Assembly (NCBI RefSeq): GCF_023913515.1
Contig: NZ_CP099392.1
Location: 1 to 64,000 of the forward strand
Reading direction: 5' to 3'
Origin: Natronococcus sp. CG52
GTDB lineage: Archaea; Halobacteriota; Halobacteria; Halobacteriales; Natrialbaceae
DNA length: 64,000 nt
Under the pieces are notes generated by a model. That model worked only from the letters and a program-made list of their open reading frames with translations, did no database searches and was not told the origin of the DNA. Positions 24,557-60,154 of the stretch are shown here, piece by piece (the first letter of the stretch is position 1; each line of letters begins with the position of its first letter). Both the position numbers and the translations under genes were made by a program.

Positions 24557-24570
24557 CCCCCTATATATCT
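24557..24570 (-). promoter_or_regulatory. TATA-like promoter of ABC system A
   Basis: The minus strand reads GAGATATATAGG, centred about 28 bp from the ATG at 24535. The spacing matches leaderless transcription of the binding-protein gene. Confidence 0.5.
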
Positions 24571-24578
24571 CCTTTGGT

Positions 24579-24593
24579 GTGAACGGCGCTCAC
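24579..24593. promoter_or_regulatory. Near-palindromic operator candidate between system A and GH43
   Basis: GTGAACGGCGCTCAC is a 15-bp near-perfect palindrome with GTGA/TCAC arms placed just upstream of the system A TATA box in the divergent GH43/ABC intergenic region. It resembles the GTGAAC half-site near the second IclR gene. Confidence 0.4.
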
Positions 24594-24653
24594 GGGCGTT
24601 TGGCTGAAATTTTCAAGTAAGAGATAAAGTTACCGCAGGTGAATAGGGAAGAT

Positions 24654-25691: not shown

Positions 25692-26351
25692 CGCCTCGAG
25701 TACCGATACTCGATCCCGCCCGTCGTTTCGAATCGGGAAATCGGGGCTACCAGTCGAATTGCGACGGCGAACACGGTACCTGTCCCGAACTATTCGCGCC
25801 TCCAGCAGTTCCGTTACGCTGCCGCTCCGCGTTCTGAGTCGACTTTGCGCGGATAACCCGATGACTCGGGTGGCATTCGATCCGCAGTAGCTCTGTATCT
25901 TATTAGGAAACAAAGCTGGGTGCGAGGTAACGGAAGGACAACGGGATTGGCCCAGCAGCGACCCGCCTTACACGACCGTGTCGTGGAGAAGACGGATCCG
26001 TCCCGCCAACCAATTACAGCCATATTATTGTAAATACCAGTCCACTTCCGGATCAGTCGGCTACCTACTGAGAACGAACAGATCAGCGCGTCAATCGAGC
26101 GACGAGACGGTGGTTACCACCGATTTTTCATCGCCTAGCCCTAATTTAGGGCGAATCGGACTCCGTTTCTCATTAAGACACGACCTATTTCGTACGAAGA
26201 GACGGCGGGTAAACGGCCACGAGAGCACCGCCGGTCGAATCGTGCGTAACGGAGACACTGCGCGGCGTGGGATCGATTCAGATCAAGGTCAGTCCTCGAT
26301 CGAGATCAGTGGCGGACGATTCGGGACGAACTATCGATTTCGTTTGAGATC
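25692..26351. other. 660-bp intergenic region, no convincing gene
   Basis: No frame here has coding character. Two small palindromes are present, a T-tailed hairpin at 26108-26127 and GCCCTAATTTAGGGC at 26138-26152. The rest shows nothing recognisable. Confidence 0.5.
26108..26127 (+). terminator. Hairpin with T-run, candidate terminator
   Basis: CGGTGGT-T-ACCACCG is followed by ATTTTT. The one-base loop is unusually tight, and the nearest plus-strand gene ends 416 bp upstream, so termination is only a guess. A second 15-bp palindrome follows at 26138-26152. Confidence 0.3.
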
Positions 26352-34931: not shown

Positions 34932-36134
34932 ATGACTGAGAAACTGAGCGAATCGGCGGCAGAACCCGACGGCTCCGGAGATTCCGTCATTACCGAGTAC
35001 GAACTGTTCGAGGTCCCGCCGCGCTGGCTGTTCCTCAAGGTGACGACGAGCGACGGCACCGTCGGCTGGGGCGAACCGGTCGTCGAAGGACGCGCGAAGA
35101 GCGTCCGAACCGCCGTCGAAGAACTGATGGACGGTTATCTGCTCGGCGAGGACCCTGCCCGGATCGAAGATCACTGGCAGACGATGTACCGCGGCGGCTT
35201 CTACCGCGGCGGCCCCGTGCTGATGAGCGCCATCGCCGGGATCGATCAGGCGCTGTGGGACATCAAGGGCAAGCGGTTCGGCGCACCCGTGTACGAACTC
35301 CTCGGCGGAGCAGCCCGGGATCGCATCCGCGTCTACCAGTGGATCGGCGGCGATCGGCCCGCCGAAGTCGGGGAAGCGGCCGCAAAGAAGGTCGAAGCGG
35401 GCTTTACCGGGCTCAAAATGAACGCGACGCCCGAGCTGGAACGGATCGACACTCCAGCAGCGGTCGACGCGGCCCGCGATCGGCTCGCCGAAGTTCGCGA
35501 GACCGTCGGCGACGAAATCGATATCGGCGTCGACTTTCACGGCCGAGCGAGCAAAACGATGGCGAAGCGCCTCGTCGCCGCGCTCGAGCCGTACGAGCCG
35601 ATGTTCGTCGAGGAACCGGTACTCCCCGAACACAACGACGCGCTGCCGGAGATCGCTCAACATACGACGATCCCGATCGCGACGGGCGAACGAATGTTCT
35701 CGCGCTGGGATTTCAAGTCCCTGTTCGAGCAGGGCGTCGTCGATCTGATCCAGCCCGACCTGTCTCACGCCGGCGGGATCACCGAGGTGAACAAGATCGC
35801 GTCGATGGCCGAGGCGTACGATGTCGCGATGGCCCCCCACTGCCCGCTCGGGCCGATCGCGCTGGCCTCGTGCATCCAGGTCGACGCCTGCTCGCCGAAC
35901 GCGCTCATTCAAGAGCAGAGCCTCGACATCCACTACAACGAGACCAGCGACGTGCTGGACTATCTGTCGGATCCGTCGGTTTTCGCCTACGAGGACGGCT
36001 ACGTGGATCTGCCGGACGAACCGGGACTCGGGATCGAAGTCGACGAGGGCGTCGTTCGCGAACGAGCGCAGGAATCGATCGACTGGCACAATCCCGTCTG
36101 GCGTCACGACGACGGCAGCGTCGCGGAGTGGTGA
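34932..36134 (+). CDS. dgoD: D-galactonate dehydratase-like enolase-superfamily enzyme, copy 2
   Basis: The 400-residue protein is a close paralogue of the 15634-16782 enzyme, with an extra 18-residue N-terminal tail before the shared YELFEVPPRWLFLKV. The blocks VGWGEPVVEGRAKS, GGFYRGGPVLMSAIAGIDQA, GVDFHGRA (Asp and His), VEEPVL (Glu), ATGERM (Glu) and MAPHCPLGP (catalytic His) are all kept, as is the terminal WRHDDGSVAEW. It should convert D-galactonate to 2-keto-3-deoxygalactonate. Two copies, one per transporter module, may serve separate induction conditions. It converges on the SMP-30 lactonase gene, which would produce its substrate. Confidence 0.88.
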   Translation: MTEKLSESAAEPDGSGDSVITEYELFEVPPRWLFLKVTTSDGTVGWGEPVVEGRAKSVRTAVEELMDGYLLGEDPARIEDHWQTMYRGGFYRGGPVLMSAIAGIDQALWDIKGKRFGAPVYELLGGAARDRIRVYQWIGGDRPAEVGEAAAKKVEAGFTGLKMNATPELERIDTPAAVDAARDRLAEVRETVGDEIDIGVDFHGRASKTMAKRLVAALEPYEPMFVEEPVLPEHNDALPEIAQHTTIPIATGERMFSRWDFKSLFEQGVVDLIQPDLSHAGGITEVNKIASMAEAYDVAMAPHCPLGPIALASCIQVDACSPNALIQEQSLDIHYNETSDVLDYLSDPSVFAYEDGYVDLPDEPGLGIEVDEGVVRERAQESIDWHNPVWRHDDGSVAEW

Positions 36135-38097: not shown

Positions 38098-40353
38098 CTA
38101 CTCGGAGCCCTGCGCTTCGACCGTCGCGACGGCCGCGAGGTTCACGATGTCCCGAACCTCGTCCTCGCGCTGGAGCACGTGGACCGGCTTGTCCATCCCC
38201 GCCAGCATCGGCCCGACCGCCTCCGCGTCGCCGAGGCGCTGGAGGAGCTTGTACGCGATGTTGCCCGCCTCGAGGTTCGGGAGGACGAGCACGTTCGCCG
38301 GCTCCTCGAGGTCGGCGAACTCGTAGGTCCCCTCGAGCAGTTCCTCGACGACGGCGGTGTCGGCCTGCATCTCGCCGTCGACCGGGAAGTCGACCGCGGG
38401 ATCGGCTCGCAGTTGTTCTGCCGCGCGTCGGGGCTTGCGCGTGCCTTCGTTGTCGACGCTGCCGAAGTCCGAGTACGACAGCAGTGCGGCCCGCGGCTCG
38501 ACGTCGAACCGGCGAGCGATGTCGGCCGCGTGTCGAGTGACTTCCGCGAGCGTCTCCGCGTCGGGATCCTGATTGACGGTCGCGTCCGCGAGGAAGACAA
38601 CCCGGTTCTTGAACGTGAGCATGTAGACGCCCGCGGCGTACTCGACGTCGTCCGCCGTGCCGATCACCCGCAGAAGCGGACGGAGCGCCGACGGGTAGTG
38701 GTGTGTCAACCCCGTCAACATCGCGTCGGCGTCTCCCTGCTGGACCATCACCGACGCGAAGTAGTTGCTGTCGCGGATGCGCTCTCGCGCCGCCGTCCGG
38801 GTCACCCCCTTGCGCTGTCGGCCTTCGTAGAGCGCGTCGACGTACTCCTCGTACTCGCCGGCCGCCGGATCGACGACCTCCGGATCGAACTCGAGACCGA
38901 GGTCGGCGGCGAGACGTTCGATCTCCGCCTCATTCCCGATCAGGACCGGCTCCGCGACACCGCGTTCCGCGAGCTGGTAGGCCGCGCGGACGATCTGTTC
39001 GCTGTGGCCCTCCGCGAGCGCGAGGCGCCTGGGATCGCTCTTGGCCTTGTTGCGCACGATCCGCATCATCTCGCGGGACTTGCCCAGGCGGGCTTCGAGC
39101 CGTTCCTCGTACTCCTCGAGATCGATCTCGGTGCGGGCGGAACCCGACTCCATTGCGGCGCTGGCGACCGCGGGAGCGACTTCGAACAGCACGCGAGGAT
39201 CCATCGGCTTCGGAATGATGTACTCGGGACCGAACTGGAGCGGTTGGTCGCCGTAGGCCTTGCGAACGGCGTCGGGGACGTCCTCGCGTGCGAGCTCGGC
39301 GAGCGCCTCCGCGGCGGCGACCTTCATCGCCTCGTTGATCTCGGTGGCTCGGGCGTCGAGCGCCCCGCGGAAGATGAAGGGGAAGCCGAGCACGTTGTTG
39401 ACCTGGTTCGGATAGTCCGAGCGCCCGGTCGCCATGATGACGGCGTCGTCGCGGGCGCCTTTCGCCTCCTCGTACCCGATCTCGGGATCCGGGTTCGCCA
39501 TCGCGAAGACGATCGGATCGTCGGCCATGGATCGGATCATCTCCCGGTCGACGATGCCGCCGACGGAGAGCCCGACGAAGACGTCCGCACCCCTCATCGC
39601 GTCCGCGAGGTCCCCCTCCGGGACGTCTCGCGCGAACTCGCGGCTGTGAGGATCCAGATCGCCCGCCTCCGCCCGGTCAGTCGTGAGGATGCCGTCGATG
39701 TCGACCATCGTGACGTTCTCCCGCCGAACCCCGAGCGAGGCGTAGAAGCGCGCCGTCGCGACCGCCGCCGCGCCGGCGCCCGCGAAGGTCACCTGCACGG
39801 ACTCGAGATCCTTGCCCGCGAGTTCGGCGGCGTTCAGCAACGCCGCGCCGCTGATGATCGCCGTCCCGTGTTGGTCGTCGTGAAAGACGGGAACGTCCAT
39901 TCGGTCGCGAAGCCGCTCCTCGATAGTGAAACACTCCGGCGCCTTGATATCCTCCAGGTTGATGCCGCCGAACGTCGGCCCCATTCCCGCGACCGACTCG
40001 ACGAAGGCGTCCGGATCCTCGAGGTCGAGTTCGATGTCGAAGACGTCGATATCGGCGAAGCGCTTGAACAGGACGCCTTTACCTTCCATGACGGGTTTCG
40101 ACGCCTGCGGACCGATATCGCCGAGTCCGAGGACGGCGCTGCCGTTCGAGACGACGCCGACGAGATTTCCCTTTACGGTATACCGGTATGCAGCGTCCGG
40201 GTCGGCCGCGATCTCGCGACACGGGCCGGCGACGCCGGGCGAGTAGGCGAGACCGAGTTCTCGCTGCGTGTTCGTCGGTTTCGTCGTCGTCGTTTCGATC
40301 TTTCCGGCCGGATCCGCTTCGTGGTAGTCGAGCGAATCGTCCTCCAGTGTCAT
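38098..40353 (-). CDS. maeB: Malic enzyme with fused phosphotransacetylase-like domain
   Basis: The 751-residue protein is a two-domain malic enzyme of the MaeB type. The N-terminal part (about 1-430) has the catalytic Tyr in [12 protein letters not shown], Lys in [10 protein letters not shown], the metal site HDDQHGTAI, and the NAD(P)-binding [14 protein letters not shown]. The C-terminal part (about 435-745) resembles phosphate acetyltransferase ([36 protein letters not shown]), which in this family is regulatory and non-catalytic. It decarboxylates malate to pyruvate with NADP+ or NAD+. A TATA-like TCGTTTATAGG lies about 22 bp upstream of the ATG, consistent with a leaderless stand-alone transcript. 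Confidence 0.95.
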
Positions 40354-41449: not shown

Positions 41450-44400
41450 TCAACTCGAGCGGTCGGCCCACGCGAGGAACAGTTCCTCCTTCGAGGTCAA
41501 GCCTTCCTCCGGAAGCGCGTGCTCGACGACGTAACTGCTCGCCTCGTGTTCGTTGTCCCACAGCAGCTGGTGCGCCTCCGGGAGGGCCGTCCAGTCGACG
41601 ACTTCGGGGTCGGTGAGATCGATCTCGCCCGCATCGACGGCCTCGTTCAACTGTTCGACCTCGTACGCGTTGCTCAGGTGCGTTCCGAGGATCTCCGCGG
41701 TCGGCATCAGGACGTCGCGCTGGCGCATCCACACCTGCGGCGCGTACATCGAGTACCGCCTGTCGGCCATCTCCTCGCTGTAGACGACGCAGCCGGTGTG
41801 CGGTTTCGTGAGCATGGTGCTGACGAAGAGCGCGTCGTGGTCGGCCCGATCGAAGACTACGTCGGGATACCCTCTCGGATTCTTCGGGGTCCGGAGCAGT
41901 TCGCCGACCGCCCGCCCGATCGGCTTGAACACCTCGTCGGTGAACTTCTGGACGACGCGTCTGAACGCCTCGGGATCGTCCTGCGCGTCCGGCAGGTCGG
42001 GCAGGGTCTCGGGCCAGCGGAACTCGTCTTCGCGGCGCTTCAGCCCCTCGAGGCTCACCGTCCCTTCGACGGCGTCGCCGTAGCCGAGCGACTCGACGAA
42101 CTCCTGTTGCTCGTCGGTGTAAGTCACGACCGCGATCCGCGCGCCGGCCTCCCGGGCGTCCTCGACGGCTCGGAGGCCGGTTTCGTCGACCACGCCGTCC
42201 GGGCCGGTGTCGGTCCCGTAGTAGACGAGGACGCCGTCGCCCGCCCGGACGTCGCTCCGCTCGAACATCTCGGCCGGCGTCGACGCGCCGGGTTTTCCGA
42301 GAAACGTCAGGTAGTAGCCGGTCGAGGCGCCGTAGAAGGTCAGCTTCCCGCCCTCCTCGAGAAGCTGGAACGCGCGTGGGAACGACAGTTCGCCGGCGTG
42401 GCTGACGGCGTAATCGGCCCGCCGTCCGTCGTGGTGGTCCTCGTACGCCTCGACGAACGCTTCGCCGTCCTCCTTCCACGTTTCCCACTCGTCTTCGGCG
42501 CTGGGGATCCGGCCCCAGATACCGTCGTACGGGCCGGCGGTTCGGTCGATCGCGTCGGCGCCGAGGGTTTCGATACGGTCGGCGCGCTCCTCGCTCGAGC
42601 ACAGCCCCGTGACCTCGACGTCGTTGCGCGCGGCGAGTTTCGTCGTCTCCCAGCCGGTGCCGGTCGAGGCGCCCTCGACGAACATCGTCGTCCCGGAGTC
42701 GATGTCGAGCGTCGTGAACAGCGCACGCCAGACGGTTCCCATGGCCAGGACGTAGGCGCCCGCCTGCTCGAGCGTCGCCTCCTCCGGGATCGGCAGGACC
42801 TGCGGCCCCTGTGCGAGCATGAACTGCTGGTGGCTGCCGTTCGGTCCCTCGTACCCCTGGATCGAGAAGTCGGCGTACATGGGGTCGAGCCCCATCGTCG
42901 GCGAGAGGAGGTCGCTCCGGCCCGAGTAGATCGTCACCAGATCGCCGACCGCGACGCGGCCCTCGCGCGTGACCGCCTCGCCGGCGTCGACGACGAGGGC
43001 GACGCCCCCGCTACCGGTCACGTGGTAGTCCTGATCGTGACTGTCGAACTGACTCACGGGAACCCCCGTGATCGCCCAGATGTCGTTGAAGTTGACCTCG
43101 CTCGCGAGGACGTACACCAGGACCTCGTTCGGCCCCGGTTCCTCGACCGGAACGACCTCCTCGACCTCCGCCTCCGCGGGATCGCCGTGTGCGGCCGCGC
43201 CGGTCTCGTCGTCCTTGACGACGGCCTGGGCGTACTGGTAGTCGGGTATCTCGTCGACGCCGGGGAAGAACGGCTCGCCCGGCGGGAGCAGTCGTCCCTC
43301 CTCGACGAGCGCTCGCTCCTCCTCGCTCGAGGGAGTGAATCGTTCCCGGGTCGGCAGCGGCTCGCTCGCCCGGTCGAGGAACTTCTCGATCCCCGCCTTG
43401 CCCCCGTCCGGATCGACGACGGCCTCGGCGAAGTGGGTCGCCTCGCGCTCGAGGCCGGCCTCGATCCCCTCCTCGAAGCCGGTTCGAACCGCCGAGACGG
43501 CCCGATCGAACGCCTTCGAGCGGCCCTCGCTGACGTGCTCGCACTGGGTTCGGTTCCGATCGACGATCGGATCCTCGAGCACGTCCTCCGGGAACTCGCC
43601 CGGCTCCGCCCACGACGAGCGGTTCTCGAGTCGCCCCTTGCGAGCGTCGGCGAGCACGTCCGACTCCGTCCTGATGTGCTCGCGGGCGAGTTCGGACGCT
43701 CGAGCGCGGGCGGTCCGGTCGGTCTCGAGTTCGTCGACCAGTCCCATCTCGAGGGCCTCCTCTGCCTCGACGGCCCGGCCGTTCGTGATCAGCGTCACGG
43801 CGTCCCTGATCCCGTCGGTCCCGCGCTCCTCGGCGAGGAGACGGGGCAGCCGCTGGGTGCCGCCGTAGCCCGGGATGAGATTGAGATTGAGCTCCGGCTG
43901 GCCGAACTCGGCGCCCCGCTCGGCGACCGAGTAGTGGGCCGCGAGCTGGAGTTCGTTGCCGCCGCCGAGCGCCGAGCCGTTCACCGCGGCGACGACGGGG
44001 ACCGACAGCTCCTCGATCCGGCGGAACGCCTCGTGGGCCTTGTTCGGGAACGTGATCGCCTCGTCGAACTCGTGGACCTCTTCGAGGAACTGCTCGACGT
44101 CCGCGCCGGCCACGAAGTTGGACGGACCGGCGCCCGCGATCACCACCGCGCCGACGTCCTCGCGGCGGTCGAGGTGCTCGAGGACGGTGTTGAGTTCGTC
44201 GAGCGCCCGCTCGTTGAGCGCGTTCACCGGCGGGCTATCGACGGTGACCGTCGCGATCCGTTCATCGGTGGCCGCTTCGCGAACGGGATTGTACTGAACC
44301 GTGATATTTCGGTACCGCTCGAGGATCTCCTGTTCGGCGGTGAGATCCTGACGCCGCCGCCATCGCTCGCACTTGGGGCGGATCTCCTCGACCACGTCGG

Positions 44401-46885
44401 GGTTTTTCAGCGTGCTCGTGTCGCCGATGCCCTCCCGGTTCAGCATCGCCGTGAGCATGCGACGCATGTACTTTCCGGAGCGGGTTTCGGGGAACGCGTC
44501 CACCTCGATGAACGCGTCCGGTATCGCGGTGACGCCCTTTTCGTCGCGTACCAGTCGAGACAGTCGGGCCTCGACCTCGTTCGTGAGTCGCTCGTCGGGT
44601 TTCGTCTGGACGAAGGCGACGGGCGTCAACCCCTTCTCGTGGTGATCGGCGCCGACGACGACGACGTTCGCCACCGGCGAGTCGGGGTTGATCCGCTTGT
44701 CCTGCAAGATTGCGCCCTCGATCTCCTCGGTCCCCATGCGGTGGCCGGAGACGTTGATGACCTCGTCCGAGCGGCCGTGGAGGCTGAACGAGCGGTCCTC
44801 GTACTTCTTGGCGACGTCGCCCTGGAGGTAGGCGTACTCGCCGTCCTTCCGGACCCAGTAGACCTCCTCGAAGCGCTCGGCGTCCCCGTTCCAGTTCGCT
44901 TTCCAGTCGTCCGGATCCCAGTTCTCGAGGTCGCCCCAGACGTACCGCATCAGGTAGGGGTACGGCTCCTCGATGATGATCTCGCCGCGCTCTTCGGTCT
45001 CCGCCTCGCGCCACGAGATCGAGCCCTCCGGCCGTTCCTCCTCCTCGACCCAGACGTTCCCGAACACCCACGGGAGCGGGTAGGTGTGTGCGTCCGGCCG
45101 GGGCGCGAACTCGTCGTTCCCGAAGAAGTGCGTCCAGACGATCCCGCCGTGTTCGGTCGCCCAGTAGGAGTTGACGTACCACTCGCAGAGTTCGTCCATA
45201 CCGAAGCGCTGGACCGCCGGACTCAGCGGTTCGGCACAGAACGTCGCGACGCGGAGGGGGTCGGTGCTCCACTCGCGCATGTCGCTCACGCTCTCGTCGT
45301 CCTCCATGATCCCCTTGAGGAAGGTGACGCCCGCCTTGAACGCGGTCACGCCGTACCGTTCGATGACCGAACTGAACCGACCCGCGTCCGGATAGACCGG
45401 CGCCCCCTCGAGGAGGACGCTCGTCGTCCGGGTCGTCAGCGAGGCGCTGATGAGGTAGGACTGGCCCGTGATCCAGCCGGGGTCGGCGATGACGAAGATC
45501 GTGTCCTCGCCCGGCACGATGTCGAAGGAAACCTTCATCGTGTTCGCGATACCCGCGGTGTAGCCGCCGTGGACGTGGACGACGCCCTTCGGTTTACCCG
45601 TCGAGCCGCTCGTGAAGATGGTGAACAGCGGGTACTCCGCGTCGACCGGTTCGGGGCGCGAGGTTTCCCACAGCGCCCGGACCAGCTCTCGGTCCTCGAG
45701 CCCGTACAGGTCGTCGAGCGTCTCGACGTCGAACCCGGCTGCGCGAGCGTTCTCGAGGATATCGGTCTGCGCCTCGGCGATCAGCTCCGACGACCAGTCG
45801 TCGCGGTCGTGCATCTGAATCTCCTGTCCGGTGTGTTCGACGACGACGACGCGTTCGATCCGTTCGTCGGAGTCGACCAGCGCCCGTGCGATCTCGGTTC
45901 TGATCTCGGATTTCTCGTCGCCCGAAAGATCGTCGAACTCGGTCAGCGCGTTACCGACCCCGCGCATCGCCTGCCCTCGCTCGACGGTGGCCTCGCCCTC
46001 GATCGCCCGCTCGACGTGAGTGCGAACGGTATCAGCGTGGCGTTCGCTCACGGCGAGTCCGCGAAGCGTTCGGTCGACGATATTCGTCACCGTGTCGGTC
46101 GGCAGGTAGTCGTCGAGCGCGGGATCGGCGTACCGTTCCTTGTACGGAACGACCTCCGCGTTCCGGTAGCCGCCGTCGCTCGTGACGAGCACGTCGGCGC
46201 CGAGTCGGGCGATGCGATCGGAGAGCGTCTTGTCGCTGAACCCGCCGAACACCGGCGTGTAGACGATTCCGAGGCGCTTCGCGGCCTCGGTGTAGTAGAT
46301 CTGCTCCATGACGTTCGGCATGTTCAGCGCGATTCGATCGCCCTTCTCGAGACCGAGATTCTGCAAAACGTTTGCGGCGGAGACGACGCGAACGAGCAAC
46401 TCGCGCCGCGAGATTTCCTCGGAGACGACCGGCCCGCCGCGGCCGTCGTTTTTCGACTGATCCCACCGATCGCCCTCGAACTGAAACGCCGTCTCGTCGC
46501 CGTGGCCCGCGAGCACGTGTCGGTCGACCTCGTTGAAGCAGGCGTTGGTGCGGCCGCCGGAGAACCACTCGTACAGCGGCGGATTCGAGTCGTCGAAGGC
46601 GACGTCCCACGGCTCGTGGGAGGCGTCGTACTCCCGCTCGAGTTCCGCGCCGGTGTCGGCGTCGAAACCGGACCACGTCTCGGCGTCGTCGCTCCAGGAG
46701 AGCCACTCGTCGTCATCCCCGTGATACCAGTGAAGCTCTCGTTTCGCGATCGAACCGTGGAACTCGCCGGGGTCCTCTCTGACGCGAGTTCGGTCCATCT
46801 CCCAGTCACCGCGGGTTCGAATCGGATTCGACCGTACGCTCCCGTCGATCGTCGCCTCCTCCTCGGCGGGGTTCGAACTCACCAT
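41450..46885 (-). CDS. pcs: Trifunctional propionyl-CoA synthase (acyl-CoA synthetase, enoyl-CoA hydratase, enoyl-CoA reductase fusion)
   Basis: The 1811-residue protein joins three enzymes in the order known from propionyl-CoA synthase of Chloroflexus and Erythrobacter. Residues about 50-865 form an AMP-forming acyl-CoA synthetase with TSGSTGKPKG (425-434), GRSDEVINVSGHRMGT, and catalytic K805 in SGKYMRR. About 870-1090 is a crotonase with acids E978 (GGGNELQLA) and E998 (GQPELNL). About 1230-1811 is a zinc-independent MDR-type enoyl-CoA reductase with EGASTGTG (1404-1411), the crotonyl-CoA carboxylase/reductase branch. The family turns 3-hydroxypropionate, CoA, ATP and NADPH into propionyl-CoA through enclosed acrylyl-CoA. 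Length matches the family closely (about 1820). It has its own upstream A+T-rich promoter-like region. Confidence 0.92.
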   Translation of the reverse strand: MVSSNPAEEEATIDGSVRSNPIRTRGDWEMDRTRVREDPGEFHGSIAKRELHWYHGDDDEWLSWSDDAETWSGFDADTGAELEREYDASHEPWDVAFDDSNPPLYEWFSGGRTNACFNEVDRHVLAGHGDETAFQFEGDRWDQSKNDGRGGPVVSEEISRRELLVRVVSAANVLQNLGLEKGDRIALNMPNVMEQIYYTEAAKRLGIVYTPVFGGFSDKTLSDRIARLGADVLVTSDGGYRNAEVVPYKERYADPALDDYLPTDTVTNIVDRTLRGLAVSERHADTVRTHVERAIEGEATVERGQAMRGVGNALTEFDDLSGDEKSEIRTEIARALVDSDERIERVVVVEHTGQEIQMHDRDDWSSELIAEAQTDILENARAAGFDVETLDDLYGLEDRELVRALWETSRPEPVDAEYPLFTIFTSGSTGKPKGVVHVHGGYTAGIANTMKVSFDIVPGEDTIFVIADPGWITGQSYLISASLTTRTTSVLLEGAPVYPDAGRFSSVIERYGVTAFKAGVTFLKGIMEDDESVSDMREWSTDPLRVATFCAEPLSPAVQRFGMDELCEWYVNSYWATEHGGIVWTHFFGNDEFAPRPDAHTYPLPWVFGNVWVEEEERPEGSISWREAETEERGEIIIEEPYPYLMRYVWGDLENWDPDDWKANWNGDAERFEEVYWVRKDGEYAYLQGDVAKKYEDRSFSLHGRSDEVINVSGHRMGTEEIEGAILQDKRINPDSPVANVVVVGADHHEKGLTPVAFVQTKPDERLTNEVEARLSRLVRDEKGVTAIPDAFIEVDAFPETRSGKYMRRMLTAMLNREGIGDTSTLKNPDVVEEIRPKCERWRRRQDLTAEQEILERYRNITVQYNPVREAATDERIATVTVDSPPVNALNERALDELNTVLEHLDRREDVGAVVIAGAGPSNFVAGADVEQFLEEVHEFDEAITFPNKAHEAFRRIEELSVPVVAAVNGSALGGGNELQLAAHYSVAERGAEFGQPELNLNLIPGYGGTQRLPRLLAEERGTDGIRDAVTLITNGRAVEAEEALEMGLVDELETDRTARARASELAREHIRTESDVLADARKGRLENRSSWAEPGEFPEDVLEDPIVDRNRTQCEHVSEGRSKAFDRAVSAVRTGFEEGIEAGLEREATHFAEAVVDPDGGKAGIEKFLDRASEPLPTRERFTPSSEEERALVEEGRLLPPGEPFFPGVDEIPDYQYAQAVVKDDETGAAAHGDPAEAEVEEVVPVEEPGPNEVLVYVLASEVNFNDIWAITGVPVSQFDSHDQDYHVTGSGGVALVVDAGEAVTREGRVAVGDLVTIYSGRSDLLSPTMGLDPMYADFSIQGYEGPNGSHQQFMLAQGPQVLPIPEEATLEQAGAYVLAMGTVWRALFTTLDIDSGTTMFVEGASTGTGWETTKLAARNDVEVTGLCSSEERADRIETLGADAIDRTAGPYDGIWGRIPSAEDEWETWKEDGEAFVEAYEDHHDGRRADYAVSHAGELSFPRAFQLLEEGGKLTFYGASTGYYLTFLGKPGASTPAEMFERSDVRAGDGVLVYYGTDTGPDGVVDETGLRAVEDAREAGARIAVVTYTDEQQEFVESLGYGDAVEGTVSLEGLKRREDEFRWPETLPDLPDAQDDPEAFRRVVQKFTDEVFKPIGRAVGELLRTPKNPRGYPDVVFDRADHDALFVSTMLTKPHTGCVVYSEEMADRRYSMYAPQVWMRQRDVLMPTAEILGTHLSNAYEVEQLNEAVDAGEIDLTDPEVVDWTALPEAHQLLWDNEHEASSYVVEHALPEEGLTSKEELFLAWADRSS

Positions 46886-47401
46886 TGAACGAATATAATC
46901 ATAAACGTTCTCGGTTAAGAGTGTTTCTCGGGGTCGTGTATCGGACGGTTCACGCCAAATTGAGTGTCATCGGTAGTATGATGTGAATTCGACTCGAAGG
47001 GCGGGGTCGGCAGCGGGCGTCTCACCATCGCTCTCGCCGCGGCGGTACGGTCGCGGTTCTTCGGGGAGCGAGCGAGTTCACCGGCCGTATCGATGACCAG
47101 ATGAGGGGCCGCCCTTGTTACGCGGCCGTGTCGGTTTGTGCCGCCTTCGTGGCTGGATCTCACGTCCGTGAACTTTTAATAGAGAGGTCCTGTTCCCGTC
47201 TGGAGGCAGTCGTGTATGAACTATTGTCGCCGATAACCATATATTCCGATAGTTATTTCGGAAGGATTCGAGTGGTTTTGAGTTGTAGTAACGGATAGTT
47301 TATCAACGTGTGTAGAGTTATAACGGGCGTTTCGGGAGATATCTCACCTCCAACCACCATCGGCGAGGGCCGTCGGAACGAGCGTCGCACTCGGCCGGAG
47401 A
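46886..47401. other. 516-bp intergenic region upstream of the synthase
   Basis: The first 25 bp hold a TATA-like CGTTTATGATTATATTC on the minus strand next to the synthase ATG. The remainder has no convincing gene; a short Arg/His-rich frame at 46915-47163 was rejected. Confidence 0.5.
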
Positions 47402-47989
47402 CTACGACGTCTGGGAGTACTTCTCGACCCACTCCTGGAGCGTGATTCCCATGCTGGCCTGCGTGATGGCGTTCGAGGAGGCGGAGTTCGCGCTCTTGAC
47501 GAGTTCCGCCTCGAGCGTTCGTTTGGGAACCTCGCCCAGAAAGTGCGGGATCGCTCGCTGGACGGCGAGCGGACAGCCGACCTCGTGGGCGAGCGCGTAT
47601 CCGGAAATCGAGTGCGGAATCTCCTCGCTCACGTACCGCGAATCGGGTTCGGTGACGAGGTCGTCGTCGACGTGATCCGGGTACTCGTAGCACTTCCCGA
47701 CGTCGTGAAGGAGACACGCCGCGACGATCGTGTCCTCGTCCGGGTCGGCGCCGTGGAACTCGCGCTGCTCGTTCGCGGCCTCGAGCGCGATTCGGGTGAC
47801 GCCGCGGACGTGTTCGACGTTCGTGACCTCCTGAATGTTCCAGGCGTAGGGAACGTCCTCGATGGATTGCCAGCCACCGCGCTCTAAGCCGAGGACCCAC
47901 GCCTCGACGACGCGCTCCCGAAGGTCGTCGCTCTCGATGCGCTCGAGTTCGGGTACCGCCTCGCGAACCTGGTGCTCGAAGTCGGTCAT
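47402..47989 (-). CDS. HD-domain metal-dependent phosphohydrolase-like protein
   Basis: The 195-residue protein carries an HD-type pattern: H at NVEHVRGVTRIAL, HD in CLLHDVGKCYEYPDH, and later H in PHSISGYALAHEVG and FLGEVPKR. These are the usual four to five metal ligands of the superfamily, which includes phosphatases and cyanamide-hydratase-like enzymes. The substrate is unknown. It starts 4 bp after the EthD protein and precedes the synthase, so it is probably co-transcribed with EthD and the E1 genes. The N-terminal DFEHQVREAVPELERI and WVLGLERGGWQSIEDVP stretches look specific to a haloarchaeal clade. Confidence 0.8.
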   Translation of the reverse strand: MTDFEHQVREAVPELERIESDDLRERVVEAWVLGLERGGWQSIEDVPYAWNIQEVTNVEHVRGVTRIALEAANEQREFHGADPDEDTIVAACLLHDVGKCYEYPDHVDDDLVTEPDSRYVSEEIPHSISGYALAHEVGCPLAVQRAIPHFLGEVPKRTLEAELVKSANSASSNAITQASMGITLQEWVEKYSQTS

Positions 47990-47993
47990 GCGA

Positions 47994-48710
47994 TCACGCC
48001 TCGTTTTTGACGAGTCGCTCTCGCCCGATGAACCGGGGGCGTTCGTCGATCGCGAGGAAGTTGTCCACGTCCTCGCGCGCTTCTTTCGCCTTGCCCCGAT
48101 CGGGATCGTAGTCGCGCGAACCCTCGCTGCCGAGCGCGTCGTACAGTTTCTCGAGGTCGTCGAAGTAGAGTTCGGCGACGCCGTCGAACTCGGCGTTGTC
48201 GGGATCCGTCGGGATGACCGTGTTGTACTTCACGACGCCCTCGATCTCGCGGGCGATCGGCGTGTGATTCGTCTGCCAGTAGTCGACGAACTCCTCGTGT
48301 GTCATTCCTTCCTGGCGAACCAGGAACGCCGAGTGCTTGTACAGGCCGTCGGTATCGCTGTCGACCGTATCCTTCTGGACGATCTCCTCGCCGATGAACC
48401 GCGGTCGCTGTTCGATCGCGAGGAAGTTGTCCACGTCCTCCCGCGCTTCCTTCGCCTTGCCCCGCTCGGGATCGTAGTCGCGCGACCCCTCGCTGCCGAG
48501 CGCGTCGTGGAGCGCCTCGAGATCCTCGAAGTAGAGTTCGGCGAGTCCGTCGAACTCCGCGTGCTCGGGTTCGGTCGGCAGCACCTGGTGGTACCGGACG
48601 ACGCCCTCGATCTCGCGGGCGATCGGCGTGTGATTCGTCTGCCAGTAGTCGACGAACTCCTCGTGGGTCATCCCCTCCTGGCGAACCAGCAAGGCGACGT
48701 GCTTGTACAT
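47994..48710 (-). CDS. Duplicated EthD-domain protein
   Basis: From ATG 48710 (MYKHVALLVRQEGM) the protein has 238 residues in two near-identical halves. Each has the EthD/dimeric alpha-beta barrel core: LVRQEGMTHEEFVDYWQTNH, then IEGVVRYHQVLPT or IEGVVKYNTVIPT, then ELYFEDLEALHDALGS. The two barrels could form one pseudo-dimer. The frame continues upstream, but a TATA box (48731-48745) is centred about 28 bp before this ATG, which settles it as a leaderless start. EthD proteins often sit beside oxygenase or dehydrogenase genes with unclear roles. It lies between E1 beta and the HD protein. Confidence 0.85.
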   Translation of the reverse strand: MYKHVALLVRQEGMTHEEFVDYWQTNHTPIAREIEGVVRYHQVLPTEPEHAEFDGLAELYFEDLEALHDALGSEGSRDYDPERGKAKEAREDVDNFLAIEQRPRFIGEEIVQKDTVDSDTDGLYKHSAFLVRQEGMTHEEFVDYWQTNHTPIAREIEGVVKYNTVIPTDPDNAEFDGVAELYFDDLEKLYDALGSEGSRDYDPDRGKAKEAREDVDNFLAIDERPRFIGRERLVKNEA

Positions 48711-48730
48711 CACACGCAAGTTTTGCATAC

Positions 48731-48834: not shown

Positions 48835-49851
48835 TCAGAACTCGACCGTCTCGAGGATCCCGTCCTGAATGCGGACCGCCTGCGGGAGATAGTAGTCCTC
48901 GAGCGCGTGCAGCGGCATCGGCGTATCGAAACCGGTGATGCGCTTGATCGGCGCCTCCTGATAGCAGACTGCGCGCTCCTGAATCGTCGTGGCGATTTCC
49001 GCGCCCAGTCCGGCGGTCTTCGGCGCCTCGTGGACGACTGCGGCCCGCCCGGTCTTTCTGAACGAGTCGACGATCGTCTCGACGTCCAGCGGCGACAGCG
49101 TCCGCAGGTCGACGACCTCGACCTCGACGCCGTGTTCATCGGCGACGTTGTCCGCGGCGATGAGGGTCGGGCGGGTCATCGCACCCCACGTGTACACCGT
49201 GATGTCGTCGCCCTCCCGCCTGATCGCCGCGTCGGCAAGCGGCACCTCGTAGCCGCCCGTCGGAACGTCCCCGCGGAACGCACGGTAGAGGAGCTTCGGC
49301 TCGAGGAAGACGACGGGATCCGGGTCCCGGATAGACGCGATAAGGAGTCCCTTCGCGTCGTAGGGCGTACTCGGCGAAACGACCTTGAGTCCGGGCTCGT
49401 GAACGAAGAAGGCCTCCTTGGACTCCGAGTGGTGTTCCGGAGCGCGGATGCCGCCGCCGTAGGGAGCGCGGATCACGATCGGCGCCGAGTACTGGCCGTG
49501 GCTCCGACTTCGCAACCGGGATGCGTGACTGACGATCTGATCGAACGCGGGATACGAGAACCCCATGAACTGGAGCTCCGCGACCGGTCGCATCCCGGCC
49601 AGCGCCAGTCCGATCGCCGTTCCGACGATACCGGACTCCGCGAGCGGCGTGTCGACGACTCGGTTCCCGCCGAACTCCTCGTAGAGCGCCTCGGTCGCGC
49701 GGAAGACGCCGCCGTTCTCGCCGACGTCCTCGCCGATCACGACGACGTTCTCGTCCGACGACATCTCGGTGTAGAGCGCGTCCTGGACCGCCTCGACGAG
49801 GGTCAGGCTGTCCGTCCCGTCCCCGGTTTCGGGCGTCGCCGCCGAACTCAT
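48835..49851 (-). CDS. 2-oxoacid dehydrogenase E1 component, beta subunit
   Basis: The 338-residue protein is a TPP-dependent E1 beta: SLTLVEAVQDALYTEMSSD, GEDVGENGGVFRATE, VDTPLAESGIVGTAIGLALAG, and PYGGGIRAPEHHSES are the family blocks; the C-terminal transketolase domain has VEVVDLRTLSPLDVETI. Together with E1 alpha it decarboxylates a 2-oxoacid and passes the acyl group to a lipoyl E2. Pyruvate, branched-chain and acetoin-type E1s cannot be told apart here. The ATG overlaps the E1 alpha stop (ATGA at 49848-49851). No E2 or E3 gene lies in the window, so the partners must be elsewhere. Confidence 0.93.
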   Translation of the reverse strand: MSSAATPETGDGTDSLTLVEAVQDALYTEMSSDENVVVIGEDVGENGGVFRATEALYEEFGGNRVVDTPLAESGIVGTAIGLALAGMRPVAELQFMGFSYPAFDQIVSHASRLRSRSHGQYSAPIVIRAPYGGGIRAPEHHSESKEAFFVHEPGLKVVSPSTPYDAKGLLIASIRDPDPVVFLEPKLLYRAFRGDVPTGGYEVPLADAAIRREGDDITVYTWGAMTRPTLIAADNVADEHGVEVEVVDLRTLSPLDVETIVDSFRKTGRAAVVHEAPKTAGLGAEIATTIQERAVCYQEAPIKRITGFDTPMPLHALEDYYLPQAVRIQDGILETVEF

Positions 49852-50993
49852 TCTAACACCTCGGAGAACGCCTCTTCGCCGTACTTTTCGCGAAGCGCGT
49901 TCAGTTCGTCCCGTTGCTCGCGGAGACGGTCCGGCAGCTCCTCGTAGACGTGTTCGAAGATGGACGACGGATCGGCCGCCGCCGCCTCGACGGTCGAAAT
50001 CGCCTCGCTAATCTGTGACTCGGCGCGGTCGTCGATCTCGTCCTCGAGGTCCTCGTCGAGAAGCCCCTCCGCGTACAGGAAGTTCCGGAGGCGGTCGACC
50101 GGATCCTTCCGTCGCCACGCCTCGGCTTCGTCCTCTTCGCGATACACGGACGGATCGTCCGCGGTCGTGTGCGCGCCGTAGCGGTACTGGACCGACTCGA
50201 CGAGGGTCGGGCGACGCTCGCCGTCGGTGGGGTTCTTTGCCTTGCTGAGCGCACAACGCGTGACCTCGTAGACTGCGAGCGGATCGAGTCCGTCGACGCG
50301 CACGCCTTCGATTCCGTACGCGGCGGCCTTCTGTGCGATCGTGTCGCTCGCCGTCTGCTGGTCTCGCGGGACGGAGATCGCCCACTGGTTGTTGTTGCAG
50401 ACGAACACCGCGGGGACGTCGAAGACGCCGGCGAAGTTCAGCCCCTCGTGGAAGTCGCCCTCGGACGTCGCGCCGTCGCCGAAGTGACACAGGACGGCCG
50501 TGTCGGCTCGGTTCTGGAGGTGGTGTCCCCAGGCCATCCCCATCGCCTGGGGAACCTGCGTCGCGATCGGGATGTACTCCGGCAGGACGTTGACGTCGTC
50601 CGGGATCGCGTACCCGTCCCGGAGCCCACAGAGCGGTTTCAGGAGCGAGGCGAGGCTCATGCCGTGAACGTACTTGGCCGCGTGCTCGCGATAGGTCGGG
50701 AACAGCCAGTCCTGCTCCTCGAGCGCGTAACTCGTCGCGACCTGGGAGCCCTCCTGTCCGGTCATCGGCGCGTACGTCGCGATTCGCCCCTGTCGCTGGA
50801 GACTGATCGCACGCTGGTCGAACCGGCGCGCGAGCACGAGGTCCTCGTACATCGCGAGCAGTTTCTCGTCGGAGAGCGCCGGAACCTCCGCGTGTGACAG
50901 GAGGTTCCCGTCGTCGTCCAGGATCCGGATCGGTTCGTCGCGTTGCGTCGACTCGCTGTTCACGTGTGGGTCTGCTTCGTTTTGGGTGCTCAT
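49848..50993 (-). CDS. 2-oxoacid dehydrogenase E1 component, alpha subunit
   Basis: The 381-residue E1 alpha has the TPP motif GDGATSEGDFHEGLNFAGV starting at residue 172 and ending in CNNNQWAIS, plus the phosphorylation-loop-like RYGAHTTADDPSVYR. TYREHAAKYVHG and GYAIPDDVNVLPEYIPIATQ complete the family pattern. It forms the E1 heterotetramer with the adjacent beta subunit. The N-terminal 35 residues are acidic and variable. The upstream gap of 400 bp separates it from the NSS transporter, which reads the same way. Confidence 0.93.
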   Translation of the reverse strand: MSTQNEADPHVNSESTQRDEPIRILDDDGNLLSHAEVPALSDEKLLAMYEDLVLARRFDQRAISLQRQGRIATYAPMTGQEGSQVATSYALEEQDWLFPTYREHAAKYVHGMSLASLLKPLCGLRDGYAIPDDVNVLPEYIPIATQVPQAMGMAWGHHLQNRADTAVLCHFGDGATSEGDFHEGLNFAGVFDVPAVFVCNNNQWAISVPRDQQTASDTIAQKAAAYGIEGVRVDGLDPLAVYEVTRCALSKAKNPTDGERRPTLVESVQYRYGAHTTADDPSVYREEDEAEAWRRKDPVDRLRNFLYAEGLLDEDLEDEIDDRAESQISEAISTVEAAAADPSSIFEHVYEELPDRLREQRDELNALREKYGEEAFSEVLE

Positions 50994-51390: not shown

Positions 51391-52818
51391 TCAGTCGGCA
51401 GCGTCGACGGACGTCGACCGGACGTCACGCGCCGACCAGCGGACGAAGAGCACGAACGGGACGGCCGTCGCGACCGTAACGAACACGATCGTCGACGTCC
51501 GCGGGGAGAACCCCGCTAGACTCAGCGCGTCGGAGTAGAACGCGAAGAGGAGGAACGTCGGAAACACCGTTCCGATCGCGTACCGCCACGGCGTGGCAAG
51601 GGACCGCGAGATCGGACCGGCACCGTTACGGTACTCCTGAACGGCGTCCGGACCGAGTACCCAGGCCGTGTAGAACATGAAGCCGGTCAGTCCGAGCGTC
51701 AACAGGAGGTCCACGAGGTGGTTCGCAAACAGCGTGAAAACGTCCGCACTGAAGGCGTTCAGGGCTCCGGTGAAAACGATCAGAACGAAGAGCCCTCGAG
51801 TAGCCGTCGGTCGCTCGATACCGAACTCGTCGACGAGGAACGAGACGGGGATTTCCAGCATGCTGATCAGACTGGTGATGGCAGCCAGCAGGACGACCAG
51901 AAAGAAGGTCGCACCGAGCAGCTGTCCCGCGGGGAGATTCGCGAACGCCCCGGCCATACCGACGAAGAGGGCACCGGGACCGCCGGCCGTCGGTCCGGCA
52001 GCGAACGAGAAGAGCAGCGGGAACAGGACGAGTCCCGCCAGCACGCCGATACCGAGGTTGAGGACGGCGATCGCCGACGCGTCGAGCGGTAACGACCTGT
52101 CGTCGTCGATGTAGGAGGCGTACGTGATCATCGTTCCGCCACCGATCGAGAGCGTGAACAGCGCCTGTCCGGCGGCCGAGCCGAGCACCGTCAAAAAGTT
52201 ATTCGCGAGATACTCCCCGTCGAAGCCGAGATAGAACTCGTACCCCTGTGCTGCGTTGGGCTGTTGTGCCGCCCAGACGGCCAACGCGACGAGCAGGACG
52301 ACGATACCGGGCATCATCACCTTCGTCGTCGCCTCGATTCCCCGTCTCACGCCGGCCGTGACGATCATCGCACTCGCACCGAGAACGATCAGTTGATAGA
52401 TAAAGGCGTCCATCCCGTAGCTGATCGCTTCGAAGTGAGCGCCGGGATCAGCGAAGTACGCCCCCGTAACGCTCTCGACGAAATAGCGGAGGATCCAGCC
52501 GCCGACGACGCTGTAGAACGACAGCAGCACGACTGCCGTGACGACACACAGGACCCCGAGTGACGTCCACGCGCGTGATCCTTTGAGAGATTTGAACGCG
52601 CCGACGGGGTTTCGATTCGATCGTCGTCCGATGATAAACGCGGCCAGAAGCCCCGGAACGCCGACGCCGATAACGATGAGGAGATAGACTAGCAGGAACG
52701 CACTTCCCCCGTTCTCCGCGGTCATCCACGGGAACCGCCAGATGTTCCCCAGACCGATAGCGCTCCCAACCGCCGCCAGTATGAATCCGACGCGGCTGGC
52801 CCAGGTTTCACGTGTCAT
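51391..52818 (-). CDS. Neurotransmitter:sodium symporter-family transporter
   Basis: The 475-residue protein has eleven or twelve helices and the NSS (SNF) hallmark SAIGLGNIWRFPWMTAENGG in the first helix, where backbone and side chains bind Na+ and substrate. Further family segments are GAFKSLKGSRAW, LSIGGGTMITYASYI and SMLEIPVSFLVDEFG. Prokaryotic members import amino acids or other small amines with Na+. Its substrate is unknown; linkage to a 3-hydroxypropionate-consuming synthase makes a small amino acid such as beta-alanine a possibility only. A TATA-like AAAATATATAGC lies about 30 bp upstream of the ATG. Confidence 0.92.
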   Translation of the reverse strand: MTRETWASRVGFILAAVGSAIGLGNIWRFPWMTAENGGSAFLLVYLLIVIGVGVPGLLAAFIIGRRSNRNPVGAFKSLKGSRAWTSLGVLCVVTAVVLLSFYSVVGGWILRYFVESVTGAYFADPGAHFEAISYGMDAFIYQLIVLGASAMIVTAGVRRGIEATTKVMMPGIVVLLVALAVWAAQQPNAAQGYEFYLGFDGEYLANNFLTVLGSAAGQALFTLSIGGGTMITYASYIDDDRSLPLDASAIAVLNLGIGVLAGLVLFPLLFSFAAGPTAGGPGALFVGMAGAFANLPAGQLLGATFFLVVLLAAITSLISMLEIPVSFLVDEFGIERPTATRGLFVLIVFTGALNAFSADVFTLFANHLVDLLLTLGLTGFMFYTAWVLGPDAVQEYRNGAGPISRSLATPWRYAIGTVFPTFLLFAFYSDALSLAGFSPRTSTIVFVTVATAVPFVLFVRWSARDVRSTSVDAAD

Positions 52819-53610: not shown

Positions 53611-54381
53611 CTAGCTGTATCTGAGGTTGATGTGGATCTCGTCGATCGCTGCGAGGAGTTTGTCCGGCAGTTCGTTTCGCAAATACTCGTCTTTCACCCG
53701 GTTTGCCGGCCCGGAGATACTGATCCCGCCGATCGGCGCGCCGTCTTCGTCCCGGATCGGAGCGCCGACCGCGTTCAATCCCTCGATCGACTCCTCGATA
53801 TTGAACGCGTACCCTCGTTCCCGAGTCGCCTCGAGTTCCTCGAGCAGTTCGTCCTCGTCGGTGATCGTGTGCTCGGTCATCTCCACTAGCCCCTGCCGTT
53901 CGACGATCGCCCGGAGTTCGTCCGGATCGAGATAGGCCAGTATCGCTTTGCCGACGGCGAGCTGGTGAAGGTATCGCCGCTGCCCGACGCGGGCGGACGT
54001 TCGCAGCGGACTGTCGCCGAACGCCTTGTAGAGATGGACGCTGAAGTCTCCCTCCTTCGCGACGAGCCAGACCTTCTCGCCGGTCTCTTCGGCCAGCCGA
54101 TCGACCTGTCGTCGCCCGACGTCGAAAAACGGGACGCGAGTGCGGGCGCTGATTCCGAAATCGAGCAGCCGAAGGCCGAGATAGAATCTCCCCTCCTCTC
54201 TGAACAGGAAATCGTTGTCCTCGAGCGTGAGCAGGTGGCGGTGGACGGTACTCCGCGCGAGGTCCGACGCCGCGGCGAGGTCGTCGAGCGTCTGGCCGGG
54301 GTTTTCCTTCAGCTGCTCGAGAAGGCGGATAGACGACTCGGTCGTCGTCACCGGCCGATTCGATCGAGGGGTGTCGTCCAT
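53611..54381 (-). CDS. IclR-family transcriptional regulator, copy 3
   Basis: The 256-residue protein has the winged helix-turn-helix SSIRLLEQLKENPGQTLDDLA…LARSTVHRHLLTL (about 16-60) and the effector domain with GISARTRVPFFDVGRRQVD, HQLAVGKAILAYLDPDELRAI and a closing GGISISGPANRVKDEYL. It is upstream of the NSS transporter in the same direction and is the likely regulator of that gene and perhaps of the E1/synthase group. The ligand is unknown. It is not closely similar to the two IclR proteins of the sugar locus beyond family motifs. Confidence 0.9.
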   Translation of the reverse strand: MDDTPRSNRPVTTTESSIRLLEQLKENPGQTLDDLAAASDLARSTVHRHLLTLEDNDFLFREEGRFYLGLRLLDFGISARTRVPFFDVGRRQVDRLAEETGEKVWLVAKEGDFSVHLYKAFGDSPLRTSARVGQRRYLHQLAVGKAILAYLDPDELRAIVERQGLVEMTEHTITDEDELLEELEATRERGYAFNIEESIEGLNAVGAPIRDEDGAPIGGISISGPANRVKDEYLRNELPDKLLAAIDEIHINLRYS

Positions 54382-58234: not shown

Positions 58235-60082
58235 CTAGCGTGGTGAAACGTGGCCCCGCTTCAGGCCGCGGAACGCACCGCGGTACGCTTCCCAGTCGGT
58301 CGTGTCCGTGTGGAACTCGAAGTCCCGGGTGTTGCCGAAGGTCCCGGTCTGAACTTCGACGAGGTCGATGCCGGGCAAGTGGAAGTTCCAGTACCACGAG
58401 AAGATCTCGGCGATCTCCTCGTTGCGCTGTTCTTCCTGGACCGTTCGCCACTCCTGGTCGAGTTCGAAGATGTTGATCTCCTCGGTCGAGCCGGAGAGAT
58501 CCTCCCGTCCGACCTCGGTCGGGAGTTCGAGCACGATTTCGCGACCGTTGTACGGCGATCGCGTCTCTCCCTCGTCGAGTGCTTGCTGGATGTCGATCGC
58601 GTCACCCAGTTCGTTACTGTGCGTGTGATTGTGTCGGAAGTAGTAGAAGGGGTGTGCGGTCTGTGCGCCGTGACTACCGATGGCCAGGTCGAAATCGATG
58701 TTGTCCGACGTTCGATCGTTGAACGTCGCCGACTCGAGGGCGTTGAGGTCGATCTCGAACCCGAAGTTGATGAGTTGGTCCGAGATCGAACGCGCGAGGT
58801 TCGTCTGGTAATCCGGAATCACGATCTCCAGCGACACGACGTCGCCGTCTTCGCCGACCCACTCGTCGCCATCGAGTTCGTATCCGGCCTGCTCCATCAG
58901 CTCCGTCGCGCTCTCCTCGTCGTCTTCGACCGAGTAATCGATGTAGTCCGCGACGTAATCGTCGTCGAGCCAGTTCGACGTGACGTCCGACGGAAGCCCG
59001 GTCTGGGCTTCGCGTGGCGTACTCTCGTTGTTGTAGTTCGTCGAGATGTGCTCGAGGTTCAGGACGTGAGCGATCGCTCGTCGAACCTCGTACTGGCGGA
59101 TGTGTTCCGCTCCCGGGCCCTGTTCGTAGAACTCGAGCTTTCGCATGAACGAATCCTCGTACACGGAAACGTCCTCCAGGTGGTCGGGAGCCGCGCCCTC
59201 GCCGACCCACTGCTGCAGTAATCCGAAGCCGAAGTCGACGTCGCCACCCTGAATCCGCTGTGCGAGGGCGTCGTCCTGTGCGAGGAGGAACTCGAACTCG
59301 TCGATCTCGATCTGATCCGCGTAGGGGTGGTCCTCGAACAGTTCGAAGTAGATCCCTTCCGTATCGTAATCGACGATCTGGAACGGTCCGTTCCCGAGTT
59401 CCTCGTCCGTGACCGTCGAGATGTGGAGCGGCATCTCGTCGGCCATCTCTTCCTGGATCTGGAGGCGCTCGTCGTGGTCGGACGCATCCTGAAGCTTTTC
59501 CGCCCACGGCTTACATTTGTCGCGGTGAATGCGTTGCATCGCGCCGAGATACCCGCCCAGTTGGTACTGGAGTAACTCGGGGTTCTGTGGCTCCTCGTAC
59601 ACCCGGGTCAGCGTCATTTCGTCTTCGAGAATGAGATCCTCGAGATCGCTACCGTCTCCCTGGAAGAGACGGGCACACTCCTCGAACCAGTACTTATCCT
59701 CGGCGGTGATCTGGTCTCCGTTCCACCAGTACCAGCCGTCCGCGAACTCCACGGTCACGGCCTGTTCGTCGGGGTCGTACTCCCAGTCTTCGATCTGCTC
59801 GAGCGCGATCGATCCGTCGGCGAAAAATCGCTGAACCGGCTCGAGGATCAGCCACGACTGGGACCACGGGTATCCTCCCGCCCAGTGGTTGAAGTTCATC
59901 TCCTCCGGAATCGTCGGCTGCCACGAACGAATCGTACTCGTCCCGTCTTCGGAATCCGTCTCGCCACCCATACAGCCGGCGAGACCCCCAGCAACCATCG
60001 CCGAACTCGCGGCAAGCATCTGACGCCGCGTCAGGAACTCCTCCGCAGAGTCCACGGTGCCGTATCTGTCACTGTTTGGCAT
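58235..60082 (-). CDS. Family-5 ABC substrate-binding lipoprotein, tandem copy 1
   Basis: ATG 60080-60082 (MPNSDRYGTVDSAEEF) opens a 615-residue protein with a twin-arginine-like signal (LTRRQMLAASSAMVAGG) and lipobox LAGC. The mature part is an SBP_bac_5 fold: YDPDEQAVTVEFADGWYWWNGDQITAEDKYW, ELGNGPFQIVDYDTEGIYFE, and ETIRAIAHVL-type helices. Family-5 proteins bind peptides or, in many archaea, oligosaccharides. A near-identical gene lies immediately upstream at 60155, and the fused ATPase at 62509 is the probable energiser; permease genes are not in the window. Sequence is intact relative to its twin. Confidence 0.9.
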   Translation of the reverse strand: MPNSDRYGTVDSAEEFLTRRQMLAASSAMVAGGLAGCMGGETDSEDGTSTIRSWQPTIPEEMNFNHWAGGYPWSQSWLILEPVQRFFADGSIALEQIEDWEYDPDEQAVTVEFADGWYWWNGDQITAEDKYWFEECARLFQGDGSDLEDLILEDEMTLTRVYEEPQNPELLQYQLGGYLGAMQRIHRDKCKPWAEKLQDASDHDERLQIQEEMADEMPLHISTVTDEELGNGPFQIVDYDTEGIYFELFEDHPYADQIEIDEFEFLLAQDDALAQRIQGGDVDFGFGLLQQWVGEGAAPDHLEDVSVYEDSFMRKLEFYEQGPGAEHIRQYEVRRAIAHVLNLEHISTNYNNESTPREAQTGLPSDVTSNWLDDDYVADYIDYSVEDDEESATELMEQAGYELDGDEWVGEDGDVVSLEIVIPDYQTNLARSISDQLINFGFEIDLNALESATFNDRTSDNIDFDLAIGSHGAQTAHPFYYFRHNHTHSNELGDAIDIQQALDEGETRSPYNGREIVLELPTEVGREDLSGSTEEINIFELDQEWRTVQEEQRNEEIAEIFSWYWNFHLPGIDLVEVQTGTFGNTRDFEFHTDTTDWEAYRGAFRGLKRGHVSPR

Positions 60083-60154
60083 ACGCAATTAGTATTATAA
60101 GTCATAGGTTAAATACTTTTCTCGAGTTCGTACGTTCGGGCTGACGTGTCTCCG

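Follow-up and report, generated by a model that had tools for sequence, protein, structure and literature searches.

Results

Architecture of the fused gene

The window analysed here is a stretch of 64,000 nucleotides at the start of the 393-kb second contig of Natronococcus sp. CG52. Positions 41450-46885 of its minus strand hold an open reading frame of 1811 amino acids, hereafter pcs, which begins with ATG and continues without interruption. The encoded product joins an AMP-forming acyl-CoA synthetase (residues ~1-850), a crotonase (~851-1189) and an MDR-type enoyl-CoA reductase (~1190-1811) in a single polypeptide, the domain order of the trifunctional propionyl-CoA synthase (PCS). Pfam locates ACAS_N at residues 90-118, AMP-binding at 356-641 (1.6e-47 for the family) and AMP-binding_C at 736-805, followed by ECH_1 at 874-1081 (2.4e-39), ADH_N at 1251-1368 and ADH_zinc_N at 1415-1522. 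A second open frame of 1789 amino acids lies antisense across the whole of pcs (plus strand, 41519-46888); since homology was found for the minus-strand frame, we take the plus-strand frame as a by-product of high G+C in third codon positions.

Against the PDB, phmmer aligns the product in one stretch with entry 6EQO (residues 24-1807 against 25-1840, E = 0, 2069 bits), which excludes a chance match. In the PDB this entry carries the name acetyl-coenzyme A synthetase, and we take it to be the PCS of Erythrobacter sp. NAP1. Over the whole alignment the two proteins are 53% identical, with 55% for the ligase part, 53% for the hydratase part and 55% for the reductase part. PMC6662991 cites a published structure of the Erythrobacter sp. 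NAP1 PCS (Bernhardsgruetter et al. 2018) and gives no PDB code. An earlier note on this DNA had described one protein with the exact order and length of PCS: the reading frame and Pfam bear out the single protein and the order, and the length agrees only approximately (1811 residues against 1850 in the PDB chain). The NCBIfam models for acetate-CoA ligase score the product at 440.6 and 422 bits, well under their curated cut-offs of 657 and 725, and do not assign it to AcsA.

Active-site residues and motifs

We aligned the product with 14 other full-length haloarchaeal sequences and 6EQO. The catalytic residues named in the earlier note, K805 (in ETRSGKYMRR), E978 (in GGGNE) and E998 (in GQPE), are found at those positions and are invariant across all 16 sequences. 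By calculation from the reading frame, the codon of Lys805, the catalytic residue of the ligase in the PETRSGK motif, lies at 44471-44473, and the crotonase glutamates are encoded within 43892-43954, both on the minus strand. The nucleotide-binding loop EGASTGTG, which the note had likewise placed at residues 1404-1411 (42653-42676, minus strand), keeps EG and TGTG in every sequence and varies in the two middle residues (AS, AA, SA or GA). In both the product and 6EQO an SSxxRA motif comes after the glycine-rich loop, which fits NADPH as the predicted cofactor. The ligase active-site motif NSYWATEHGG is identical in 6EQO, whereas ordinary haloarchaeal acetyl-CoA synthetases carry DTWWQTETGG; judged by this motif, the ligase is of the PCS type, distinct from the acetyl-CoA synthetase type.

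Taken together, the order of the domains, the colinearity with a solved PCS from end to end, the conservation of the catalytic residues and the PCS-type ligase motif identify the predicted product as an archaeal PCS, real and intact, as the earlier note had proposed; it forms a new branch within an already known enzyme family. Function as PCS at the level of the reactions is very likely, and homology supports the conversion of 3-hydroxypropionate to propionyl-CoA that the note had predicted.

Distribution of the fused gene

Full-length pcs is present in 12 of the 125 sampled genomes of the host family (7 of 29 genera), and one further match among these genomes is a reductase alone. Searching the class (391 genomes) with the reductase part as query adds four genomes of another family, with frames of 1560-1820 amino acids; three of these copies can be read whole (1804-1805 amino acids) and the fourth runs off its contig. 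An assembly error or a decaying, inactive gene is hardly credible as the source of the fusion: the same fusion occurs intact in 14 other assemblies from the two families, at 68-92% identity to the CG52 copy and with invariant active sites, which refutes an artefact as far as gene structure is concerned. Preservation of the fusion over this range of identities and across two families indicates that pcs is under selection.

In Natribaculum and Natrinema zhouii the gene is carried by plasmids, whose records annotate it only as 'AMP-binding protein', and PCS-like matches at E 1e-100 in a plasmid collection are confined to Natribaculum, Natrinema and Haladaptatus. The patchy occurrence of pcs and its location on secondary replicons suggest gene transfer among haloarchaea. 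A search for a bacterial donor, run without a positive control on 297 genomes belonging to the same class as one actinobacterial record, found nothing.

The final 35.7 kb of the contig that bears pcs in CG52 (G000:C2 357262-392952) repeat its first 35.7 kb (window 1-35690) at 99.92% identity. This terminal repeat most likely reflects an unclosed circular contig, with a replicon of ~357 kb, rather than a real duplication, and contig C3 has equal matches at 31607 and at 375245, which points the same way. Elsewhere in the window, two dehydratase genes with near-identical starts (15634-16782 and 34932-36134, the second scoring as galactonate dehydratase) lie among sugar transport- and breakdown-like genes and form a sugar-acid catabolic island near pcs. 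Two adjacent genes resembling those of secreted proteins (58235-60088 and 60155-61945) are 67% identical, have a lipobox-like start and probably encode substrate-binding proteins that arose by tandem duplication.

Gene neighbourhood in Natronococcus

A gap of 516 bp separates pcs from the next gene, and a putative promoter region (46886-46945, minus strand) contains, immediately ahead of the ATG, the AT-rich element GTTTATGATTATATTC. The gap and the element suggest that pcs is probably transcribed alone from its own, probably leaderless, promoter. Beyond the gap, all on the minus strand, are genes for an HD-domain protein (47402-47989; 90% identity to Natronococcus pandeyae), a tandem EthD-domain protein (47994-48725, start approximate; closely similar N-terminus in the same place in N. 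pandeyae), E1 beta-like (48835-49851; 92%) and E1 alpha-like (49848-50993; 94%) subunits of a 2-oxoacid dehydrogenase, a SNF-family sodium-dependent transporter (51391-52818) and an IclR-family regulator (53611-54381). The order IclR, SNF transporter, E1 alpha, E1 beta, EthD, HD, pcs is shared by CG52 and N. pandeyae, with 90-94% identity where measured. Four species of Natronococcus, CG52 among them, have the transporter close to pcs (79-94%), and it is the only one of these neighbours to be found near pcs in the further species (79-80%). Downstream, a malic enzyme/phosphotransacetylase fusion (38098-40353, minus strand) is not conserved beside pcs and is probably unrelated to it.

The neighbours E1 alpha/beta, EthD, HD and SNF spell no pathway, and no obvious gene for making 3-hydroxypropionate stands next to pcs in CG52. 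The conservation of the E1 genes and the sodium-dependent transporter beside pcs in the two closest species could be taken to mean that the enzyme has diverged towards another 3-hydroxy acid, or towards a 3-hydroxyacyl-CoA delivered by the 2-oxoacid dehydrogenase (for example 3-hydroxypropionyl-CoA from 4-hydroxy-2-oxobutyrate). We consider such a divergence improbable: the ligase motif and all catalytic residues match the 3-hydroxypropionate enzyme, and E1 genes adjoin pcs in none of the other species seen. IclR regulators are also near pcs in Natribaculum and Natrinema, and their presence at several loci indicates inducible catabolism.

Loci of other haloarchaea and the question of autotrophy

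The Natribaculum locus combines pcs with genes for a thiolase, an OB-fold protein, an acyl-CoA carboxylase, a B12-dependent mutase, an iron-dependent alcohol dehydrogenase (iron-ADH), a beta-hydroxyacid dehydrogenase, a SauS-like acylating aldehyde dehydrogenase (ALDH) and an IclR regulator. Relatives of its iron-ADH (61-63%) and ALDH (56%) adjoin pcs in a different order in two genomes of the other family (G396 and G354). The recurrence of the iron-ADH and SauS/SucD-like ALDH pair in two families (L046 23599-27644, L112 13538-16456 and L113 4242-6895) points to a functional link with pcs. On L046 the ALDH gene occupies 26208-27644 and the iron-ADH gene 23599-24831. The closest solved relative of the ALDH is a CoA-acylating succinate-semialdehyde dehydrogenase of the SucD type, and the solved relatives of the iron-ADH are 1,3-propanediol and methanol dehydrogenases. 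The pair can be read in two directions, from malonyl-CoA through malonate semialdehyde to 3-hydroxypropionate, or from 1,3-propanediol through 3-hydroxypropanal to 3-hydroxypropionyl-CoA, and these solved relatives do not discriminate between them.

In the first direction, PCS would belong to a reductive route that leads from acetyl-CoA and CO2 through 3-hydroxypropionate, relies on an unrecognised malonyl-CoA reductase and feeds anaplerosis or the synthesis of PHBV. The gene content of the Natribaculum locus (carboxylase, mutase, the two dehydrogenases and the ALDH) and the adjacency of the pair to pcs in another family speak for it; malonate semialdehyde is a plausible substrate of the ALDH given its closest solved relative; and for Haloferax mediterranei a path to propionyl-CoA via 3-hydroxypropionate, serving PHBV synthesis, has been proposed (PMC7137286, PMC6631277). 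The CG52 genome nevertheless contains no close homologue of the SauS-like ALDH (best E 3e-8), no extra Asd-like protein and no long fused SDR protein, and the proximity of the iron-ADH to 1,3-propanediol and methanol dehydrogenases suggests an oxidative route. On balance a reductive role is unlikely, if somewhat less so than a divergence in substrate.

The same genome searches bear on autotrophy. Malonyl-CoA reductase of the two known kinds, archaeal Asd-like and Chloroflexus fused SDR, is absent from the CG52 genome: there are only two Semialdhyde_dh proteins, one ArgC-like and encoded after a LysX/ArgX-like gene, the other Asd-like, and no SDR frame exceeds 508 amino acids or is long enough for the Chloroflexus enzyme. 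An autotrophic 3-hydroxypropionate cycle in CG52 is therefore unlikely, in line with the expectation of the earlier note. A methylmalonyl-CoA mutase with the canonical signature (RQYAGF, YIAR), an enzyme that the bi-cycle does call for, is encoded at C1:1728689.

Two readings of genes at these loci were dropped. The Natribaculum B12 mutase is not taken as a methylmalonyl-CoA mutase: its signature, RQFAGF, STAFD, FIAQ, resembles that of isobutyryl-CoA mutase, and among solved proteins 2-hydroxyisobutyryl-CoA mutase is nearest to it, so it provides no evidence for a route from propionyl-CoA to succinyl-CoA. An M24 protein near pcs in Natrinema zhouii has Xaa-Pro dipeptidases as nearest solved relatives, and a link to DddP or direct DMSP cleavage was abandoned. 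On the Natrinema zhouii plasmid (L045 21401-31091), pcs is followed by genes for IclR, a 2-hydroxyacyl-CoA-lyase-like ThDP enzyme, a PaaK-like ligase, a mutase with a 2-hydroxyisobutyryl-CoA mutase-like signature (RQIAGF, STDFD) and MeaB; this locus looks like one for the degradation of a branched 2-hydroxy acid.

Unfused modules of the PCS type

Separate PCS-type reductases of ~600-755 amino acids, 50-55% identical to residues 1190-1811 of the pcs product, occur in at least eight genomes. A fusion of hydratase and reductase without a ligase domain (956 amino acids; L049 1481-4351, genome G021) is possibly an intermediate or a truncated form of PCS. In Haladaptatus (L044 6413-16471) and genomes G308 (L114) and G073 (L050), the reductase gene lies near genes for a crotonase and an ADP-forming CoA ligase, each with homologues at the other two loci (47-75% identity for the crotonase, 50-71% for the ligase). 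These modules resemble pcs in their reductase and in the crotonase and CoA ligase genes close to it, and differ from it in that the genes are separate and the ligase, being ADP-forming, belongs to another family than the ligase domain of PCS. In these modules, the same three-step chemistry appears to be spread over individual proteins, with a ligase of another kind. The Haladaptatus and G308 loci additionally have genes for a BCCT transporter and for a Rieske oxygenase that is GbcA-like and resembles glycine betaine monooxygenase; a betaine-like compound is perhaps converted to propionyl-CoA there.

Phylogenetic analysis separates three lineages: the unfused reductases together with the 956-amino-acid protein (100/100), the fused sequences of haloarchaea (95/94), and 6EQO. 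As to the root among the three, neither the grouping of all fused PCS (p-AU 0.29) nor that of all haloarchaeal reductases (p-AU 0.53) is rejected. A more far-reaching scheme would credit haloarchaea with a complete 3-hydroxypropionate module in two independent architectures. In one, a fused PCS would be supplied by an iron-dependent 3-hydroxypropionate dehydrogenase and a new malonyl-CoA reductase of the acylating, SauS/SucD-like kind; the other would be unfused, with an ADP-forming ligase and a reductase that may be the ancestral component out of which PCS arose. We hold this scheme to be a long shot.

Discussion

The best reading of these observations is that pcs encodes a genuine PCS, which in the heterotroph CG52 very probably works as an assimilation enzyme for 3-hydroxypropionate obtained from an imported compound. 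Its role is most likely the assimilation of 3-hydroxypropionate or its precursor, not CO2 fixation. The ligase part would activate 3-hydroxypropionate with ATP and CoA, K805 acting as the catalytic lysine; the crotonase part would dehydrate 3-hydroxypropionyl-CoA to acrylyl-CoA by means of E978 and E998; and the reductase part would convert acrylyl-CoA with NADPH to propionyl-CoA before the toxic intermediate gets out. The internal channelling proposed in the earlier note would follow by analogy with the known enzyme. Propionyl-CoA may then proceed to succinyl-CoA through methylmalonyl-CoA mutase, to odd-chain polyhydroxyalkanoate, or to both.

The haloarchaeal enzyme shares with the Erythrobacter PCS its domain order, end-to-end alignment, catalytic residues and the motifs of the ligase and the cofactor loop at ~53% identity, and differs from it in the archaeal host, the gene neighbourhood and the net acidic fraction (0.10 against 0.05 in 6EQO). 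By homology, compared via 6EQO, PCS of the Chloroflexus bi-cycle belongs to the same family and would catalyse the same reaction; unlike Chloroflexus, CG52 shows no malonyl-CoA reductase of known type and hence probably runs no closed cycle. AcuI-type acrylyl-CoA reductases carry out the same reduction and belong to the MDR superfamily, but are unfused and about half the length of the PCS reductase, whose nearest solved relatives outside PCS are crotonyl-CoA carboxylase/reductases.

Our literature search, which drew mainly on articles outside subscription journals, found no paper describing PCS in haloarchaea. The surprise of finding it there is lessened by reports of bi-cycle enzymes including PCS in Actinobacteriota, Alpha- and Gammaproteobacteria (PMC9802188), outside Chloroflexota, and by the route proposed for H. 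mediterranei, which would likewise yield haloarchaeal propionyl-CoA via 3-hydroxypropionate.

The finding extends a bacterial reaction-chamber enzyme to archaea and brings salt-adapted versions of PCS within reach of synthetic CO2-fixing and 3-hydroxypropionate pathways. With fused and unfused forms occurring within one class, the way in which PCS was assembled becomes testable, and the loci described here provide candidate genes for 3-hydroxypropionate metabolism in haloarchaea, which is so far poorly defined.
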